From Polytrichum commune (Eukaryota; Streptophyta; Polytrichopsida; Polytrichales; Polytrichaceae), in contig OX485808.1 of the NCBI GenBank assembly GCA_950295325.1, positions 3,596,501 through 3,660,500 of the forward strand: 64,000 nucleotides of DNA, in the 5' to 3' direction. Made by a program: the position numbers and the translations under genes. The notes under the pieces are model-generated. The model had not been told where the DNA came from, searched no databases, and worked only from the letters and a program-made list of their open reading frames with translations. This document shows, piece by piece, positions 408 through 44,622 of the stretch (positions are counted from its first letter, which is position 1; every line of letters starts with the position of its first letter).

Positions 408-416
408 TATTTTTCA
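408..416. repeat. Candidate left target-site duplication of the LINE
   Basis: The 9-mer TATTTTTCA occurs here and again at 8453-8461. The two copies sit exactly where the A/C-biased element begins and where its TC-rich 3' tail ends. A T-rich 9-bp duplication fits target-primed reverse transcription, but it is short and low in complexity, so chance remains possible. Confidence 0.5.
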
Positions 417-1106
417 ATAGAAACACTAAACTCCAACAAACAAACAATTATTACACTTAGAAATCAATACAAATCTAACCTTCGTATACTTAAAATTAAA
501 ATCAACCCAAAAGACACAAACCCCAATACACAAAAATACCAAATACAAAAAACCTACAAAATATACAAAAGTAATATAACAAAATTATATTTGAATACAA
601 AAACCAATAGTAAACCAAACAAATCCCACAAAAAATTAGTAAAAATCATCTCCATCAATACTCCAACTAAATTACAAATAAAAAACATACAAATAAAAAT
701 CACAACAAAACCTCTTACCAAATACAACAAAAATAAAACAATACAACCTACTCGGAATAAACATCTAAAATACCCTATCAAACAAAATATAAAGCCTACT
801 ATGGGCTCGGCCTACCGGCCTCGCCACAAAATAGAGCTAATATATATACACCACCACACCTTTAACCCCATCATTAATACAATTACAAAGCCTATACACC
901 CACATACTAAACCCATACACTACCATCCCAAAAATGCACACAAAACAATACCCGCCCTACCTAATCTATTCACCACTAGTAATTATACAATAATAAAGTA
1001 TTATAAAATGTTCAAGAGAAACCCAAAAATAAAACATTATCTCGGATATTACTTCATTAATAAATTAGCCCTACTACAATGTGGAGATATCGAATCCAAC
1101 CCGGGC
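417..1106 (+). pseudogene. LINE N-terminal segment: basic Lys/Asn/Ile-rich protein ending in a 2A peptide
   Basis: An uninterrupted frame of about 230 codons reaches from the element start to the 2A break point. It is rich in Lys, Asn, Ile and Thr and low in acidic residues, as expected of a nucleic-acid-binding ORF1-like protein, but no named domain was recognised. The first in-frame ATG inside the element is at 801 and the next at 1008, so either the upstream 384 bases are leader, the start codon was lost, or initiation is non-AUG. From the ATG at 1008 the product would be only a 33-residue leader ending in the 2A sequence, a layout reported for N-terminal 2A peptides of other non-LTR elements. 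A long stop-free run in such A-rich DNA, where TAA should be common, argues that the upstream part was coding. Confidence 0.55.
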
Positions 1107-1109
1107 CCA
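1065..1109 (+). other. 2A ribosome-skipping peptide motif
   Basis: The frame reads LALLQCGDIESNPGP, matching the strict 2A consensus D-(V/I)-E-x-N-P-G-P with the usual Leu-rich, Cys-Gly lead-in. In known 2A peptides the ribosome fails to join the final Gly (1104-1106) to Pro (1107-1109), releasing the upstream protein and continuing downstream. Here that would separate the basic N-terminal part from the enzymatic polyprotein without a protease. All key residues are intact although the element is otherwise dead. Function is inferred from motif identity. Confidence 0.88.
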
Positions 1110-2515
1110 ATGCCAAATATAATACACGCACACCCAACAACACACAAAAGAGCAGCCAATACCTATTTTATCCCTAATACAATAAAACTCCATCCAGAAT
1201 ACCAACACCTTGCAAACAGTTTTTCCCCTATATTAAAACAAGACCATCCCTTGCACCAACAATCAATCTTGGCATTTCCTCACTTACACCAATACATACA
1301 AACGAAAAACCACCCTCCACCTCCCCATATGGTATACGCCATCATTGTAACCATTAACCCCTCAATAAACACATGCAATAATATACTAGCCCAACCTAAC
1401 GCCTATCACTTTAACATAGAATGGACCAATACACTAATTACCAAGTTGGCTCACCTTACCAACCCTCCTGAAAGGCATATCCTCACGATACATCCATACA
1501 CTAAGTTTATTGAAACCCACCAAGACATAATAAACCCTCCAAACTCAATACATAAAGACCTATACACTTTCATCCATAAACAAGGAACACCCCCAAGTCT
1601 AATTGAAATCCAAAACGAATTCCCATTTTTACCAAATAAATTAATAACTGAAACACTTAGATGCTTTGAACCAATAAATGAATATGCCCACCCACCCCCA
1701 CTCCTAAATATACCTACCCAAACACCTAGAGCAAACAACAACACCAACAACGAAACAAACATGATAACTTGGAATGCTTCATCACTTAATACAACCTTAC
1801 CCAACTTACAAAGCCTCATCACCTACACTCAAATAAATACAGCAATTATCACTATCCAAGAGACCAAGCTCACTGCGACAAAATCCACGAAATACATTCA
1901 GAACTTATTCCCACAATATAAACTCATTTTTAACAACACACACGCATTCACGAGATGTATCCATCAACGAATGCCCTATACACCCGGCAGGGGAGGATTG
2001 CTCACACTTATACACAATAAATATGCGTTCCCCGGTAATATCACCAAAATCCCGACTCCAATAAATATTTCACTATACCTCCAAATTATACGAATAAATA
2101 ACCAACCATTACAACCATGGCTAATCATTCATATATATATGCCCACACACGTAGAAGACATTCGACTCATCCCCACCATAGAAGCCACAATTACCAACCA
2201 AATCACCGCACACCCAAATCACAAAAACATCATGTGTGGAGATTTTAACCGAGATATCGCACTTATAGGCAGACAAAATGACAACCTCTACACACCACCA
2301 CAAGAAGAAGACATACAATGGAGGACCTTTACTACATCCCTGAATTAGAATATATCCCAACAGATTCCACATTCTCAAGACAAGGTGGTAATAACTTTAC
2401 ATCAACTAGCTTGATTGATGGTTTCTATATCAACTCGTCAAATAATAGTAAATACACCTCTACAACAAACACCCATATAAACCTCAACTCAGACCACTAT
2501 CCAATAACACTACAT
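1107..2515 (+). pseudogene. LINE polyprotein: uncharacterised linker plus APE-type endonuclease
   Basis: Residues after the 2A break (1107-1760) form a Pro/His/Asn-rich linker with one region (about 1560-1670) that could be a helix-turn-helix; I do not recognise it. The apurinic-like endonuclease starts at 1761. Visible motifs are ITWNASSL (metal-binding Asn), IQETKL (catalytic Glu, 1860-1862), GRGGLL, the HIYMP strand, CGDFNRD (2235-2255), SLIDGF and the terminal SDHYPI (Ser-Asp-His, 2489-2497). This enzyme nicks target DNA for target-primed reverse transcription. The frame ends at a TAG at 2346-2348 and resumes one frame over, best explained by loss of one T next to AAT-TAG, so this copy could not make a complete nuclease. 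Confidence 0.85.
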
Positions 2516-4420
2516 ATACCACACAACACACTACTAGCAAGACCCATACTCTCCAACAACATTACACAATCCAGGATTTAAAACCCAATACCGCCCGAAA
2601 ACCTCGAAAAATTTAACATAATTTTTTTTGAAGAAAACACCATACAAATTAATGTTTTAACCACTCTCCTTGAACACCACGACCATCTCACAAATAATCA
2701 ATGGAAAAATGCATGTGACTCACTCGACATCATAATACAAAAAATTTCACTAACTACAGAAGAAACATGCAGTGCAGCCCCATCACCACACCTTACAAAC
2801 CGTGCAGCCCAACAAGGCGGCTTCTTGCCACGCAAACTAGCTAAATCATGGAAAAAACACCTAGCCACATATCACTTAATCATGAAAACTATATACATTA
2901 CCAAAAACAACCCGAACTGGCAAACACACCCAATAATAAATGAAATACACAACCACCAACATGCTCACATCCCTAACCCACCCACAACAAACACATCACC
3001 AAACGAATGGATAGAAGAAATAGCAACCATTGCAAAAACCGCCAAGAAACAAGCTAGAGATATCACTACAAAATACACTAAAGAATGCATATTAAAGGCA
3101 ATATCAAAATACAGACAACTTTATGAAAAAAATCCAAAAAATGTAAACATGAAAGTCTTCAGAAACTCCGAAACTTCACCCCTAGACTCTATCATTGACA
3201 GACAAAACAACATTTTAACTAGTCCCGAAGATATTGCCAAAGAAATATATATACAACAATCTATTAGCAACCGCCCCACAGTTCTCACTTGTGAACACCA
3301 AACAATACACCCCCAACATTGCACGTGTAACGTACGACAATACCCATAGCATGACCTCGACGGCTTCACCATAGACCGGCGCGGAGAACCCCAAATTCCA
3401 CTATATACATATTTTGACACAGAAACATATGACCTTTGCCTCAAAAACCTAGGTAATAACAAAGCCCCTGGTCCAGACAAAATTCCCAATTCAATCATCA
3501 AAAATATGCCACCACGTTTCCACAAACTTTTGTTTCTATTCTTCAAATACTGTTATAAACAACAACAAATCCCTACATCATGAAAAACTAGCCTCACAGT
3601 TTTAGTTTATAAGAAAGGTAACCCATCACAACTTACAAACCATAGACCTATTGCTCTAGCAAATACCATATATAAATTTTATACAAGCACTCTGACATCT
3701 ATCATTTCGACCTATGGAGAAACTCATCAAATACTACATGATAGCCAAGAAGGATTCAGAGCTGAAAGAAGTACATCTAGACAACTTCAAGTATTTATTG
3801 CTGCATTAGAAGACGCAAGATTCACAAACCAGGACATATACATTTTATACATAGACTTCAAGAATGCATTTGGCTCCATTGACCACGCTAGACTCCTAGC
3901 CATAATGAAGGATCTCGGATACCCAAACGACGCTGTAAACCTAGTCGGAAATATATATTCTCAATCCACTACTACATTCATTGGAGAACACTTTGGTAAA
4001 ACACAACCTATCCCCATTCAAAGATGAACAATACAAGGAAATACCCTAAGCCCATACCTATTCATCATATTCTTAGAACCCCTCCTTAGATGGTTACAAC
4101 AAGGGAATAATGGATACACATTTGGTACATCCAAAGTAAAAATCTCCTCAGCAGCATACGCCGATGACTTAGCAGCAATTGCCAACAAACTAAAATCACT
4201 ACAAATACAAATTAACAAGCTCGACAAATTTTGTAAATGGGCGGGCATGGATTTGGGAATTCCTAAATGCGCGATTACTGGATGCCCAAACAAATCCAAA
4301 ACGAGCCCCCTAGCATTCAAAAGTCAAATCCAAGCTACCAATATAAACTACAGAAACGAACCTATACCAGTCCTAAGTCAAAATGAACCATACACATACC
4401 TGGGAATAAGCCTCGCCCCT
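2516..4420 (+). pseudogene. LINE polyprotein: reverse transcriptase domain
   Basis: After a spacer, the frame carries the LINE pre-RT signature NKAPGPDKIP (3455-3484), then fingers and palm: LVYKKG near 3605, NHRPIAL, EGFRAERSTSRQ, motif A IDFKNAF with catalytic Asp at 3854-3856, motif B QGNTLSP near 4034, and motif C YADDLAAI with the Asp pair at 4163-4168. Motif E/thumb (YLGISL) follows at about 4397. It would copy the element RNA at the nicked target. Stops interrupt it at 2579 (TAA), 3347 (TAG), 3581 (TGA) and 4025 (TGA, just before motif B), so the copy is inactive. The motif B context and the 'LEPLLRWL' that follows resemble APE-bearing LINEs rather than LTR elements. Confidence 0.9.
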
Positions 4421-6029
4421 TCACTAAAATGGAAAACGCAAATACACAATACCACCACCAAAGTTATAAAACAATGTAAAGACCTAGCAGCTTGTCCAGC
4501 TACTATGAAACAAAAAATTAATATGGCAGACACAGTTATACGTGCTGGAATCGCATACAGCTTCTACGCTGTATCATACTCTCTTCCCGCCATAAAAAAA
4601 CTTGACAAAAATATCATAGCCCTACACAAAACAATATGTGGATTACCAAAATGCACATCAAACATCACTACACAACTCCCTCATGACTTATTCGGAATAG
4701 AAGCCTTCTCACTCAAAAACGCCTATTTACGATGCATAGAAGAGCAACTACAACATGCCCTTAATGACACCGGAAGACTTGGAAAAATTTACAATGGACT
4801 ACTACAATTTATACTTGCAACATTTGGTGGCGCCAAAGAAATACCTCGTATCAAATATCACCACTGTGTCCGGTCACCTATAACTAGAACACTATTTTTA
4901 CTGAAGAAAGAAGCCGGAATCCACCTTAAAAGTACAATGGACAACTTCATATTTAACACCTCCCCTCTTGAAAACGTCTGGATGAAAGAAGCGCAAAACA
5001 TGCATGGCCTAAATCATATAACCTCGCTAAAATTACTACAAAAATTACTACTGCACAATATAATTGAACTAAGGCAAATCACCTTACCCAATGGCCTTAA
5101 TATGATGAGCCCAGATGATTTTAAAAACTATTATTCCAACCCTACAAAACTAACCAAAAGTGCACTAAACATTGCCCAACAATTATTTTGTCACCCCTCA
5201 TGCCCCCCACAATGTCAACAACCATGCCCGCACCATTATCCCCCAAGAACCTTAAAAGACAACTACATTATAATAAACCACAACATCCTCCCCAGACAAC
5301 CCGATCCTCCCATCCACCCCCCAAATCCACCGCACCCACACCACCCATCTCCACCAAGAGAAGTTCTTAAATACCCCACACAATTCCCTATCCACACAAT
5401 CCTTGACCACAAAAAACGTCAATACATTAACTCCAATGGAATAACAAAAAATGACACATCATACCTATGCCAATGGATAATAAGAAATAATAACATCTAT
5501 AACAAATGGCGAACCCAAAGATATTTATTCCTTTGGTATGACGCTAACACTTGTACACATAATACCAGCCTACTTACTCAATACTACACCAAGAGACAAC
5601 ACAAATACTTCTCAAACTTAATAAACGCCCATTTTGCCACAGAACAACAACGTGATACGAGATATGTCACCCCCGCAATAACTATCCCACTGGCACATAT
5701 TTCTATCAATGAATGCAACCCCGAAAGTGATATAGAAACCACCATCAATACTATCCAAACTCACTTTGATGTTGCCCACATATACGAAGATAATGGAAGG
5801 CACCTCACCACTATCTCCAAAACTAGACTACATTGGCTTTGGCAACAATACCAACTCGCAAAAAACACCCCACATGGACTAGAACCACCCACACAATCAT
5901 TTGAAACCGAAATGGTATGGTTATACCAAAGATACAAATACCGTATTCCTAAAAATGACCCTCTAAAACTAGTCCAATACACAATACCAACCCCAATACT
6001 AAATTTTCTCATCACATCATTTAATATCA
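4421..6029 (+). pseudogene. LINE polyprotein: thumb and long connector with a Cys/His cluster
   Basis: This stretch is open for its whole length, the longest intact coding block in the element. After the thumb region it contains a cluster reading C-x3-C-x3-C-x3-C-x-H-H (5189-5236), a plausible metal-binding knot, followed by a Pro/His-rich hinge (about 5240-5370) and then a region with aromatic and basic residues (about 5400-5900) that I do not recognise. The distance between RT and RNase H, about 830 codons, is far longer than in ordinary LINEs, so extra domains are present. The open frame despite age suggests relatively late stop mutations. Confidence 0.6.
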
Positions 6030-6410
6030 GCCACTCATATTTCTCATCCCCAGTCACATGCCCCACACAACTCAATCAATTTTACTCCCCGTTCTCACGA
6101 GATAAAATATTTGGCTCCTTAGGTAAAGCCTTCGACCATAAATGGAAGGGAATAGGCTATGCCCACCCCAATAATGCAATAGACCTACAACAGGCTATAC
6201 ATTGGGCCCGTCTTGCCGCCAAAAACGACCCAAGTACCATCACAATACTCATTTCACCGGATACAAATTGGTACCAAAACTTCAATCCACACTCTGGTCC
6301 ATTTCCAGATACACATATTATTGCCCACTTTGCTGCAGATACTATCACATATGAAGAACCTACTATACCACCTGAACTTAACATATCTAGGAAAGAACTC
6401 TCTACATTAC
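6030..6410 (+). pseudogene. LINE polyprotein: segment resembling a PCIF1/Dam-type adenine methyltransferase
   Basis: The frame shows, in order, YFSSPVTCPTQL, a YSPFSRD segment, FGSLGKAF (about 6110-6133), W-K-G-I-G-Y followed by AHPNN (6161-6175), a helix with AIHWARLAAK, and a strand ending ISPD-TNWYQNF. The order SP...D..FGS.G..F...G-x-(N)PP...hydrophobic strand-PD.W is that of adenine-N6 methyltransferases of the PCIF1 cap-methylase and related phage/transposon families. The catalytic NPPF/Y position reads HPNN, so the domain may be inactive, highly divergent, or a different fold with chance likeness. If real, it would modify element RNA or cDNA. This is inference from motif spacing and needs a profile search. 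Confidence 0.4.
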
Positions 6411-7090
6411 AAATATTCTGCATACACCATCAAAATAACTACATAGGAACCTATGAACAACTAAATCAACTCACCCATATTGTAAATAACCTTTCAATAC
6501 CACAACCATACACACAAATTGCCACATATACCCCTCCGAATACCCCTGTCAACCCTAGCAAAAAGTGGTCCAAACTAACCTATCCCAACATCCCCACACT
6601 CAATGAAGCATCTATGCCTCAACCACCCGAATACCAAACTAACTTCCCATTAAAATTCCATCCACAATTTAGTTATTACACTGACGGTTCATTTAAAAAA
6701 CCCAAACTAATTGCCCCTGGAGTATGAAGAAGAGAAGCAGCAAGATATGGCATTTATAGTCCTAAAGGGCTTAACATAGCCAAACGACTACATGGCCACC
6801 AGAATATCCTACGGGCAGAAATGATTGCCATCCACAAAACACTACGAATTATCAACGATCAATATCCAAATGAACCCGCATACATATTTACCGATAGCCT
6901 AAATGCACTTTATCTACTAAACACACAAATTAAACATCCCACACTACACAATAGTCACCCTGACCAAGCCACACTTGCCTCCATGGTACAATTGCTCCAA
7001 AACCGTTCCTAGCCAATCACATTATACAAAGTGAGAGTGCACGTCAATATCGACGGCAACGAACAAGCAGATAAATTAGCAAAAGAAGGA
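6411..7090 (+). pseudogene. LINE polyprotein: RNase H domain
   Basis: After a variable spacer the RNase H fold begins at about 6671. The four acidic catalytic positions are visible: Asp in YYTDGSF (6683-6685), Glu in RAEM (6818-6820), Asp in FTDSLNA (6893-6895) and Asp in GNEQADKLAKEG (7070-7072). It would degrade RNA in the RNA-DNA hybrid during second-strand synthesis. TGA at 6725, where the context suggests Trp, and TAG at 7010 interrupt it. RNase H downstream of RT occurs in several LINE groups, including those with an APE domain. Confidence 0.88.
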
Positions 7091-8142
7091 CTGGAGCTTA
7101 CACATAGAAGAGCCACACATCCATACGAACACGCCCATGCCACACCGTATTATTACCAAAAAGACGAATGGCCCTCCATGATAGACATGCCAGACAAAGG
7201 CCCAGTTAGATTTCTAGAAAAACAAATTAAAAAATATGACAGAATAAACAACTTAGAAAACCTGGCCATACAAACTCCCAATATATATAAATGGATAAGT
7301 AATGAAAATATTGACAAAGAACTTTCCAATGAATTTTGGAATAACCCTACCATTACGGACAAGCAAAAATCATGCCTTATCAAATTTCGCACCGGAACCT
7401 ACATGGGCCAAGCCAGAAAACAAACTTTCTTTGGTAGACAAAGATTCCCTACCATTACCTGTCCTATTTGTAATTCATATGACTACATGTACTACTGACA
7501 TGGCTACATGTACTACTAACATGTAGGCAACAACATATACATTCACTACACGTCAAAAGGCATAACAAAGCAGTCTGGGAAATCAGAAAATTATTAATAT
7601 CTTCCGAAAAATCCCGATGTTACACTCTTATGAACGCAGGTACCTTTAATGGCAACCCCCAAGAAAACACCGTCCCTAACTGGCTATTACCGTGCACATG
7701 TGGAACCCAAAGATGCCACTGTAACTCCCGCTTTAGACCCGACATTCTCTGCGTTAAAGGCTTACCATATCAAAACGAACCCCCCACAAATATAGACGAA
7801 ACACTTACCATACAATTCATTGAATTCACATATTGTAATGATAGATTTTCACCGGTAACACTAGAGGCCAAAGCTAACAAATACAAGCCACTCATAGAAA
7901 GCATTGCTGCTCTAGGGTGGAAAATTGACCCGCTCATTGTTATTACAGCAGGAGCCAGAGCCGCAACACACATTCCATCGATGAAGTTGCTTGAAGACAA
8001 ACTTAAAATACCCATGCCATCCATCCGAAATACCTTTAAAAATATTAATACCATTGCCATACAATACGCCATGTCCATCCTCCTTCACAAAAGACGACTA
8101 GAAAATCATCAACCCCTACCTCAACTACAAGACCCCCCTTAG
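7091..8142 (+). pseudogene. LINE polyprotein: CCHC knuckle and C-terminal restriction-like endonuclease
   Basis: A spacer with a conserved-looking KFRTGTYMGQARK stretch leads to CPIC (7460-7471). The His (7507-7509) and last Cys (7522-7524) lie in another frame beyond a 14-bp insertion at 7484-7497; without it the spacing is CX2CX7HX4C, that of RLE-bearing LINEs. Then come RHNKAVW, a second cysteine cluster CxC-x4-CxC (7693-7722), and the nuclease motifs RPD (7735-7743), Glu in IEFTY (7822-7824) and KxxKY (7870-7884), the PD-(D/E)XK arrangement. TAA closes... the frame ends with a stop at 8140-8142 after a basic tail. RLEs cut target DNA, often at preferred sites. Together with the upstream APE this gives two unrelated nucleases in one element. 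Confidence 0.8.
7484..7518 (+). repeat. 14-bp tandem-like duplication that breaks the CCHC knuckle
   Basis: TACATGTACTACTG at 7484-7497 is nearly repeated at 7505-7518 (last base differs). The extra 14 bases shift the frame from 2 to 1 and separate the two halves of the zinc knuckle. Removing them in thought restores the expected spacing, so this is a late lesion of this copy. Confidence 0.75.
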
Positions 8143-8361
8143 CTAAAAACCAAAAACATATATGAGAAACGTCCTCTCTCTACAACAATAAGCTCATGAC
8201 CAGGCACCCCAACTTTGCACAAACACACCCCCTCATTAATTAACCCTATTTATACCCTCCTAGATGGTACTGGCCTCTTTGATGCTGGTTTCTTTTGTTA
8301 CCGGTTACTTGTGACTATAGTGTCTACTCTCGAAAGGGGGAAGTAGTTCTTTACTCCTATT

Positions 8362-8382
8362 CCTATGTCCCGTGGACATAGG
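8362..8382. repeat. Perfect hairpin 1 in the LINE 3' UTR
   Basis: CCTATGTCC, three-base loop CGT, GGACATAGG: a perfect 9-bp stem. It could fold in RNA or DNA. Confidence 0.8.
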
Positions 8383-8417
8383 TCTAGGGGTGGAACGAAC
8401 AAACACTTCATTCACGT

Positions 8418-8434
8418 CGATCCCCCGGGGATCG
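8418..8434. repeat. Perfect hairpin 2 in the LINE 3' UTR
   Basis: CGATCCCC, one central C, GGGGATCG: a 17-base palindrome that in RNA would form a GC-rich stem of seven pairs with a three-base loop. It lies 35 bases downstream of hairpin 1. Confidence 0.8.
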
Positions 8435-8452
8435 AAGTTTCTTCTCTCTCTC

Positions 8453-8461
8453 TATTTTTCA
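8453..8461. repeat. Candidate right target-site duplication of the LINE
   Basis: TATTTTTCA, identical to 408-416, directly after the TC-rich tail. Confidence 0.5.
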
Positions 8462-43250: not shown

Positions 43251-44440
43251 GTCCCCCTTACCCCTTGTGCATTTAAAGGGATCCACATGGTCTAGCAAAA
43301 CATGACAAAAATTCAATCAAAATATTATTCGGCGAGAACAAAAGGTTGATATAACCTAGTAGCAATTTTAGTACTTTGACGGCGAAAAAGCATATATTTT
43401 GGGACCCGTTGAATGCCTTTATGGAGGTTCCAACCGGCAAGAGGGAAACTTGGCATATGGACGTACGTCTCATCCATCCGTGTTGAAAACATCTCCCTTA
43501 AAAAAATTGTGGTTAATCGATGCCATTTGTGCCATGCTAGTTTGACTCAAGGGCTTTGAACATACCATGACTAAGAAGCTACATGATGACGATGATAATA
43601 GAAAGAGTTTGGGATTAAAATACTATGATATTTTATAGTTGAAAAGTTGAAAAGTTCACAGTGCCTAGCATGAATGCTCCCCATAAATGGGGAATCCCGA
43701 AATCAAAAGAGAATTATGCTCATATGATACTTATTCCCACATAACGCACCCAAGGAGTTGTGTAATGTTATGGAGTTGATTTCGGTGTCAAATCAACTTA
43801 AGAAAGTAACGTCCAGACTACATATTTTTTTCAAAACATTCTCATTGGTCAAATGAGAGGCCTCTCATTTGCAACAAACCCCTCTTGCCATTCCAACCAA
43901 TAGAGCGTCATGCGACACTTCAATCTCAAAAGTGAATATACATTATGTGTAATTTGCTATGAAGGTGTGGTAAACCTCATATTTGCTCACTTATGGGCAC
44001 ACAACCCCAAAACCACGGCTTGTGGCTCAAATGAATCATCGTTTGGAGATGCCCGGAAACCCAAAAAAAGGTTCCACCCTTTGTTCCGGAGTATCCATGG
44101 TCTCAACACTCCATTTTGTTTTTTTAAAGTCAAAATAATAGTGCACAAGTACCACCAAAAATTTCACGGGGATCCTTATAATCATGGAAAGGGAGTTGGA
44201 CTCCACCAAAAAGTGATAACATTATGAAGTGAAAAGCTCACACGTTTCTTTCTTTGAGAATAATCACACTTTGATTCTCAAATGACAGTGCAGGATATGA
44301 AATCTCGATTCTACTCTAGCTTGAATTTGAAGTGGATGAAAGAGAGGGAGCATACTTTCATGAAGGTTAGAATGGTAACTAGGCTCACATGTTGAGAGAT
44401 GTTATGGTCGTGACTAATGTCGGCCTGGCATTGTCTTTTT
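43251..44440. other. Unassigned intergenic DNA
   Basis: No gene, RNA or clear repeat seen. Confidence 0.45.
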
Positions 44441-44622
44441 CTATACCAGTCATGTATTTATAATAAGGATTTCATGTTTTTTTATACCAATCATGTATAT
44501 ATAATAAGGATTTCATGTTCTTTTATACCAATCATGTATATATAATAATAAGGATTTCTTGTTTTTGAATATAATACATGTATCTATGATAAGGATTTCA
44601 TTTTTTTATACCAATAAACTAT
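44441..44622 (+). repeat. Tandem minisatellite, unit about 41-44 bp, four copies
   Basis: The unit reads roughly TATACCAATCATGTATATAT then AATAAGGATTTCATGTTTTT. Copies start near 44442, 44483, 44524 and 44568, with a partial copy at 44608. Confidence 0.8.

Follow-up and report, generated by a model that had tools for sequence, protein, structure and literature searches.

A LINE with two endonucleases and a PCIF1-like domain, probably of Dualen type, in the land plant Polytrichum commune

Can a single long interspersed nuclear element (LINE) encode two unrelated endonucleases, and to which kind of LINE would it then belong? The question is raised by an element at positions 417-8452 of a 64,000-nucleotide stretch of Polytrichum commune DNA, hereafter the window (OX485808.1 in assembly GCA_950295325.1, positions 3,596,501-3,660,500); all features of the element described below lie on the forward strand. 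From the letters of this stretch, the original prediction had read a LINE with an apurinic/apyrimidinic endonuclease (APE), a 2A peptide, a reverse transcriptase (RT), an RNase H and a restriction-like endonuclease (RLE). We followed the element into its relatives in the same genome (408 Mb, 64 contigs; loci are designated L001, L002 and so on) and conclude that it is probably a LINE of the Dualen type with two endonucleases, which was active recently in a land plant. The genome itself points to a land plant, perhaps a bryophyte: rbcL and accD lie on its plastid contig (146,561 bases; 30% G+C in the two pieces that could be read), contig C1 has TTTAGGG repeats at either end, and seven contigs are large. 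Its second open reading frame (ORF2) holds, in this order, a variable N-terminal part, 2A, APE, RT, a probable chromodomain, a PCIF1-like domain, RNase H and a CCHC knuckle with the RLE. All the parts named in the prediction were thus recovered, but it had overlooked ORF1, the two domains that lie between RT and RNase H (the probable chromodomain and the one resembling PCIF1) and the double 2A in two copies of a diverged subfamily.

The APE was found where it had been placed, on the N-terminal side. At window 1764-2520, with the frame broken near 2340, the motifs IQETK, GDFN and SDH are readable, and the Pfam model Exo_endo_phos (PF03372) scored 29.5 bits for a cut-off of 24.5. At least one of the two APE models Exo_endo_phos and Exo_endo_phos_2 exceeded its cut-off in the window copy, L002 (one model), L016, L042 and L044. 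Six APE motifs were looked for in ten copies, nine of which cover the region (L001 lies outside); eight of the nine have all six, and L007 is without one of them, at a point where its alignment breaks.

The C-terminal RLE (window 7460-8142, up to the stop codon) was equally readable, with its CCHC knuckle, RPD at 7735-7743, the glutamate at 7822-7824 and KANKY, an instance of KxxKY, at 7870-7884. We surveyed these motifs in 28 copies (the window copy, L001-L008 and L016-L034). The CCHC knuckle was present in 26 of 26 readable copies, L008 having a stop inside it, and KxxKY in 27 of 27; [RK]PD was present in 25 of 27, the proline being missing in L017 and L023, and the glutamate stretch in 26 of 27, L027 being frame-shifted there. 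In the window copy, a short tandem duplication (around 7480-7530) disrupts the knuckle. An AlphaFold model of the RLE part of L003 had a mean pLDDT of 58.7, with much of the core at 70-89. Its six best Foldseek rows were all R2 proteins (E 1.1e-4 to 2.2e-3), which does not refute the reading of the C-terminal part in the original prediction. R2 also occupied ranks 1-7 in VIA (Z 9.5-11.6), the next row being the polymerase of a bunyavirus, nuclease domain included (Z 7.2).

Between the two nucleases, the RT lies at window 3450-4411 with YADD at 4157-4168, and Pfam recognized it in the window copy in two pieces (RVT_1, 6.4e-12 and 8.5e-11). Searched against the PDB, the full ORF2 of L003 matched R2 (1e-29), with L1 ORF2p absent up to E 0.1; its RT part alone matched R2 at 5.7e-31 and L1 ORF2p at 8e-16. 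The order was reversed for the control L038, which is one of the L1-type LINEs in this genome (L1 ORF2p 4.9e-54, R2 3.3e-22). We then placed the RT in an unrooted tree of ten rows, four from these elements, three L1-type from the same genome and three R2, with no row for Dualen, I, Jockey, CR1, Ingi, Crack or RTE. Three groups were obtained, with support of 100/100 for the clade of these elements and 80/85 for R2; the tree tool flagged long branches meeting. The approximately unbiased (AU) test rejected the joining of these elements with the L1-type L038 alone (p = 6.9e-6). The tree that the original prediction had called for, in this ten-row form without Dualen, therefore keeps the elements outside the L1-type rows. 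By their sequences, with an RT outside the three L1-type rows and an RLE, they are not members of the L1 clade. They are not members of the R2 clade either: an APE is present and the flanks vary among the copies read. The L1-type LINEs of this genome (L038, L039 and L040) have APE and RT in one frame and, upstream of it, another long frame of its own, and the ORF2 frame of L039 is unusually long (1,845 aa).

The RNase H (window 6671-7100) was recovered in part: the D-E-D-D residues are readable in the window, but the domain is cut there by stops and the piece scanned reached only E 0.017. The Pfam RNase_H model scored 7.3e-13 in the intact L003 and 2e-16 in L042.

Searching the genome with part of the window ORF2, we scored the best 51 of 3,797 first-look candidates. 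Open ORF2 frames of 2,625 aa each were found at L003 and L005, on different chromosomes. The open frame of L004 has at least 2,857 aa in the stretch read (2,924 aa by genome search) and that of L016 at least 2,279 aa (2,919 aa by genome search). A diverged second subfamily was found via L041 (83 matches, the best 81 of 2,837 candidates being scored). The frame of L041 stops before the RNase H, which goes on in another frame; L042, L043 and L044, which belong to this subfamily, have ORF2 frames of 2,422, 2,409 and 2,305 aa. Intact copies, for which the original prediction had asked, do exist: both nucleases stand in one frame in six of the seven copies with frames above 2,200 aa (L003, L004, L005, L016, L042 and L044), the exception being L043, whose frame stops short of the RLE.

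L003 and L005 are 99.5% identical across 11.5 kb while lying on different chromosomes, and recent movement is therefore favoured. Among the best 51 candidates there are also diverged, partly broken copies, such as C2:40402066-40404762, whose proteins are 74-98% identical to that of the window copy, from which the family seems to have been mobile over a long time. The ratios of nonsynonymous to synonymous substitution rates (dN/dS), all taken against L003 and rough, many dS values being above 1, were 0.06-0.15 for the APE (6 comparisons), 0.06-0.07 for the RT (7 comparisons) and 0.06-0.10 for the RLE (10 comparisons, 3 of them with saturated dS). These ratios indicate that the enzymatic domains of ORF2 are under strong purifying selection.

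Two other accounts of this architecture have to be weighed. The element might be an APE-only LINE in which the RLE motifs are read by chance, and indeed in L003 and L016 the last 335 aa had no match in Pfam, and an RLE sequence profile found no R2 in the PDB. However, motifs kept in nearly all readable copies, the R2 proteins at the top of both structural searches and a dN/dS of at most 0.10 in the 7 comparisons with unsaturated dS make chance hardly credible. The other account is an independent fusion, in which an RLE element of the R2, R4 or NeSL kind would itself have gained an APE and become Dualen-like outside the Dualen clade. The RT, which in the unrooted tree falls on the same side as R2 and is split at 100/100 from the L1-type rows, speaks for it, as do the PCIF1-like domain, the chromodomain and ORF1, none of which, to our knowledge, has been described for Dualen. 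On the other hand, APE, RLE and RNase H have already been reported as the set of Dualen/RandI in the portion of PMC4640811 consulted, and 3' repeats other than poly(A) are given for eight of eight green-algal RandI families in table 3 of PMC3747384, likewise consulted in part. A single origin is moreover the simpler account, and we thus regard an independent fusion as rather unlikely.

A dual-endonuclease LINE of Dualen type is accordingly the reading that we prefer, and several results weigh against it. Besides the failure of the RLE profile and the roughness of the dN/dS figures, the APE of L003, L004 and L043 remained under the Pfam cut-offs, and the mean confidence of the AlphaFold models was low (pLDDT 58.7 for the RLE part and 53.6 for model A1, which covers the PCIF1-like domain). 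A frame break separates the 2A from the APE in L006 and L044, and no target-site duplication was found at L006, whose 5' border may be unsure. The founding Dualen elements have a cysteine protease, which may or may not define the clade, and no peptidase was found in the Pfam scans of our ORF2 to E 1, which a divergent one may escape. Finally, the Dualen type is assigned by architecture, the RT tree having no Dualen row, and we do not file the elements as proven members.

What, then, is the domain that lies between the RT and RNase H? At window 5640-6380 we found a methyltransferase-fold domain resembling PCIF1, in which the Pfam model PF12237 matched 5882-6151 with 37.1 bits (cut-off 31.1, E 3e-9); it was also above cut-off in L003 (3.6e-10), L004 (1.2e-10) and L016 (2.4e-13). 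In a genome-wide search for PF12237, the best 150 of 697 candidates were scored and all 150 passed the Pfam cut-off; at the 19 of these places whose surroundings were read, the domain lay each time inside the ORF2 of this LINE. A host PCIF1 gene was looked for with a 105-aa piece of the zebrafish protein; of the 108 matches, which were weak (best E 0.0016), none stood out, and several of them overlap LINE or PF12237 places, as seen without checking all 108. Scanning a viral contig set with the alignments of the PCIF1 region and of the RLE gave 63 and 23 pattern matches, none of which was confirmed. No LINE with a PCIF1-like domain was found in the literature, searched mostly at the level of titles, and an earlier mention in Kojima and Fujiwara 2005, Iyer 2016 or Odon 2013 is possible.

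The domain is kept by selection while its catalytic motif is lost. Its core had a dN/dS of 0.03-0.12 in 8 comparisons with L003 (2 more being inestimable for saturated dS), about as low as that of the RT. The identity of the core to L003 equals that of the RT in the window copy (85% each) and is lower in L016 (66% vs 79% for the RT). The N and F of the NPPF motif are required for catalysis in PCIF1. NPPF was absent from 32 of 32 copies read; aligned to PCIF1, its place is taken in the window copy by AHPNN (6161-6175). AHP stands there in 28 of 28 copies, followed by PN in two and by HN, NN or HT in the rest, and the site reads AHPKD in L041 and AFPTD in L042-L044. The asparagine has thus become histidine in 29 of the 32 copies and phenylalanine in 3, the aromatic residue is kept in none and the second proline in two only (L016 and L017). 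The [FY]SSP and FG[SA]xG stretches are retained, with SSL for SSP in L005. Since the motif is lost and the domain nevertheless kept by selection, we read it from its sequence as repurposed and probably non-catalytic.

Here also there are alternatives. The domain could still be active as an adenine methyltransferase whose motif IV has changed, and one may invoke for this the fold, the two retained stretches and the strong constraint on the core; with the essential asparagine replaced in every copy read and the aromatic residue kept in none, we consider this improbable. More radically, the assignment to PCIF1 could be an over-prediction of a common Rossmann-like fold. The matches in the PDB sequence searches were weak (E 0.098 and 0.28; with a profile, 0.44 and 0.96), but PCIF1 provided the only rows of both searches, all 150 scored places (of the 697 candidates) passed the Pfam cut-off, and PCIF1 took ranks 1-5 in VIA (Z 8.2-8.9) for the low-confidence model A1 (pLDDT 53.6). 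Some observations do count against PCIF1: the N6-adenine methyltransferase RlmJ is structurally nearly as close (VIA Z 7.5-8.0, its best rows within 1 Z of PCIF1, that is, tied), it and not PCIF1 came first when A1 was searched with Foldseek (E 0.022, no row at or below 0.001), and in L042-L044 PF12237 stays under its cut-off (25.5-28.5 bits). Taking both sides together, we find over-prediction very improbable, and we retain a repurposed PCIF1-like domain.

The stretch that precedes this domain (window 5366-5600) likely contains a chromodomain. It carries the pattern Y-L-C-Q-W...W...L, and AlphaFold placed three strands and a helix there with a pLDDT of about 80. Ten pieces from relatives were combined into a profile, which retrieved 12 rows from the PDB to E 10, ten of them chromodomains (best E 0.049). 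The Pfam Chromo model was above cut-off in none of eight pieces from relatives, matched five of them below it (E 0.0009-0.13) and gave no match in the other three. No chromodomain appeared among the best 50 Foldseek or the best 50 VIA rows of model A1, a result with which a chromodomain is still compatible. The region containing it is under weaker constraint, with a dN/dS of 0.07-0.37 against L003.

On the N-terminal side, the 2A motif of the original prediction was confirmed in frame upstream of the APE. In the window copy it lies with its upstream context (...INKLALLQCGDIESNPGP) at 1029-1109, D-I-E-S-NPGP occupying 1086-1109. At least one NPGP motif precedes the APE in 12 of 12 copies that cover the region. 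The full D(V/I)ExNPGP is found in 9 of the 12, the glutamate being lysine in L004 and L044 and glutamine or histidine in L043. Two 2A motifs stand in a single ORF2 in L041 (around 898 and 1699) and in the frame of L043 (around aa 197 and 351), where they carry glutamine and histidine for the canonical glutamate; the sequences suggest that the double 2A apparently arose by duplication of an N-terminal cassette. The 2A and its flank had a dN/dS of at most 0.12 in five of five comparisons with L003, one with saturated dS. The part of ORF2 that precedes the 2A, of which a remnant is left at window 417-1028, is less constrained (dN/dS 0.45 in one comparison, window against L003), and the length of open frame ahead of the 2A varies widely among copies. 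A 2A-like signal sequence from echinoderms has been reported to be functional in plant cells (PMC4981915, consulted in part).

Longer copies have an ORF1 upstream of ORF2, with 539 aa from the likely methionine in L003, L005 and L006. We found 81 matches to it, 49-100% identical (best 80 of 850 candidates scored), and, judged by position, matches also lie upstream of L002, L027, L030 and L032. In L003 (oriented 3178-3202), the last 24 nt or so of ORF1 overlap the beginning of the open frame of ORF2. Pfam gave no match to ORF1 below E 2.3, and the PDB no credible one (best E 0.071, a flavocytochrome). An 18-bp tandem repeat of about 9.5 copies was observed at L035 2087-2269, in a 5' region common to L003 and L005; these are perhaps promoter repeats.

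As for the window copy, its borders at 417 and 8452 proved exact. BLAST alignments with L001 and L002 stop at 8454-8455 and that with L002, spanning 416-8454, starts at 416. The 9-bp direct repeat TATTTTTCA stands at 408-416 and exactly repeated at 8453-8461, and the element flanked by these left and right target-site duplications is therefore 417-8452. Such 9-bp duplications were found at two of the three copies of which both ends were available. The element of the original prediction is thus real and its motifs are readable in a three-frame translation, but this particular copy is 5'-truncated, consisting of ORF2 sequence and the 3' untranslated region (UTR) without ORF1, and broken. Apart from the frame shift near 2340, its ORF2 has stops at 2579, 3347, 3581, 4025, 6725 and 7010; the copy is dead. 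The 3' UTR (8143-8452) ends in a TC-rich simple repeat, without terminal poly(A). Nine copies were compared at their 3' ends: (CTAT)n was found in L003-L006 besides the TC-rich run of the window, and the pattern used revealed no end repeat in L001, L002, L007 and L008. Elsewhere in the window, a tandem array of 4.4 copies of a 41-bp unit lies at 44436-44615. A tRNA search of the window found none, and searching the window, L003, L035-L037 and L041 with Rfam yielded nothing at gathering scores, weaker ribozyme matches not having been sought.

These parts suggest how the element may work. Two proteins would be made, ORF1 of about 539 aa and a polyprotein-like ORF2, at whose 2A ribosomes may skip, so that the enzyme would begin at a fixed proline whatever precedes it. 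This enzyme would copy its own RNA at a nicked target; such target-primed reverse transcription agrees with the truncated 5' end, the duplications of 9 bp and the 3' ends made of simple repeats. RNase H would then clear the template, and two nucleases would be on hand for the two strand cuts, presumably dividing the labour. The chromodomain may guide insertion to marked chromatin, and the PCIF1-like domain would most likely be a binder and not a modifier, of capped or adenine-containing RNA or of another part of the complex. We would go one step further only tentatively: a cap-adenosine methyltransferase may possibly have been domesticated as a non-catalytic reader of caps or RNA and, together with the chromodomain, allow one protein to recognize its own capped transcript, choose chromatin and make both cuts with separate nucleases.

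Having two unrelated nucleases and a crippled relative of a cap methyltransferase, the family provides a rare test case for how LINEs insert. A family that selects for both nucleases and has near-identical open copies permits a direct test of which nuclease cuts which strand. The position of Dualen in RT trees has been taken as showing that APE LINEs arose through replacement of the RLE by an APE (PMC4640811, in the portion consulted). The family also illustrates to what extent LINE proteins can be enlarged. The pseudo-methyltransferase in it points to a LINE able to read RNA caps or modified RNA; we know of no proposal of such a role.

How do these elements compare with known systems? With PCIF1/CAPAM, the cap-adenosine methyltransferase, they share the PF12237 core, the FxSP and FGSxG stretches and the fold; unlike it, they have lost NPPF, their domain is embedded in a LINE, and the Pfam match mostly ends before the model's C-terminal part. 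Chromoviruses are long terminal repeat (LTR) retroelements bearing a chromodomain; they are similar in having it in a retroelement polyprotein and differ in being LTR elements with an integrase, whereas the element here is a LINE. APE-type LINEs with a 2A-like motif on the N-terminal side of the APE-RT protein were reportedly described by Odon in 2013; the motif is placed alike, but that work is titled as concerning APE-type LINEs and the part consulted mentions no RLE. R2 retrotransposons lack APE, RNase H and 2A and insert into ribosomal DNA (rDNA), whereas the flanks vary among our copies; R2 nevertheless has the same RLE fold and the same order CCHC-RPD-Glu-KxxKY, and gives the best PDB matches of both RT and RLE. 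The closest likeness in architecture is that to Dualen/RandI, LINEs reportedly described by Kojima and Fujiwara in 2005, and the original comparison with them holds in this respect: APE and RLE occur in one element, with RNase H, simple-repeat 3' ends and an RT apart from L1-type LINEs. Compared with Dualen proteins as these are described, the elements of P. commune add 2A, the PCIF1-like domain, the probable chromodomain and ORF1. Their host differs as well, since Dualen/RandI were given from green algae only in a 2015 survey (PMC4438587) and LINE/Dualen was annotated in cryptophytes in a 2025 paper (PMC12747079), both consulted in part, and the present elements reside in a land plant.

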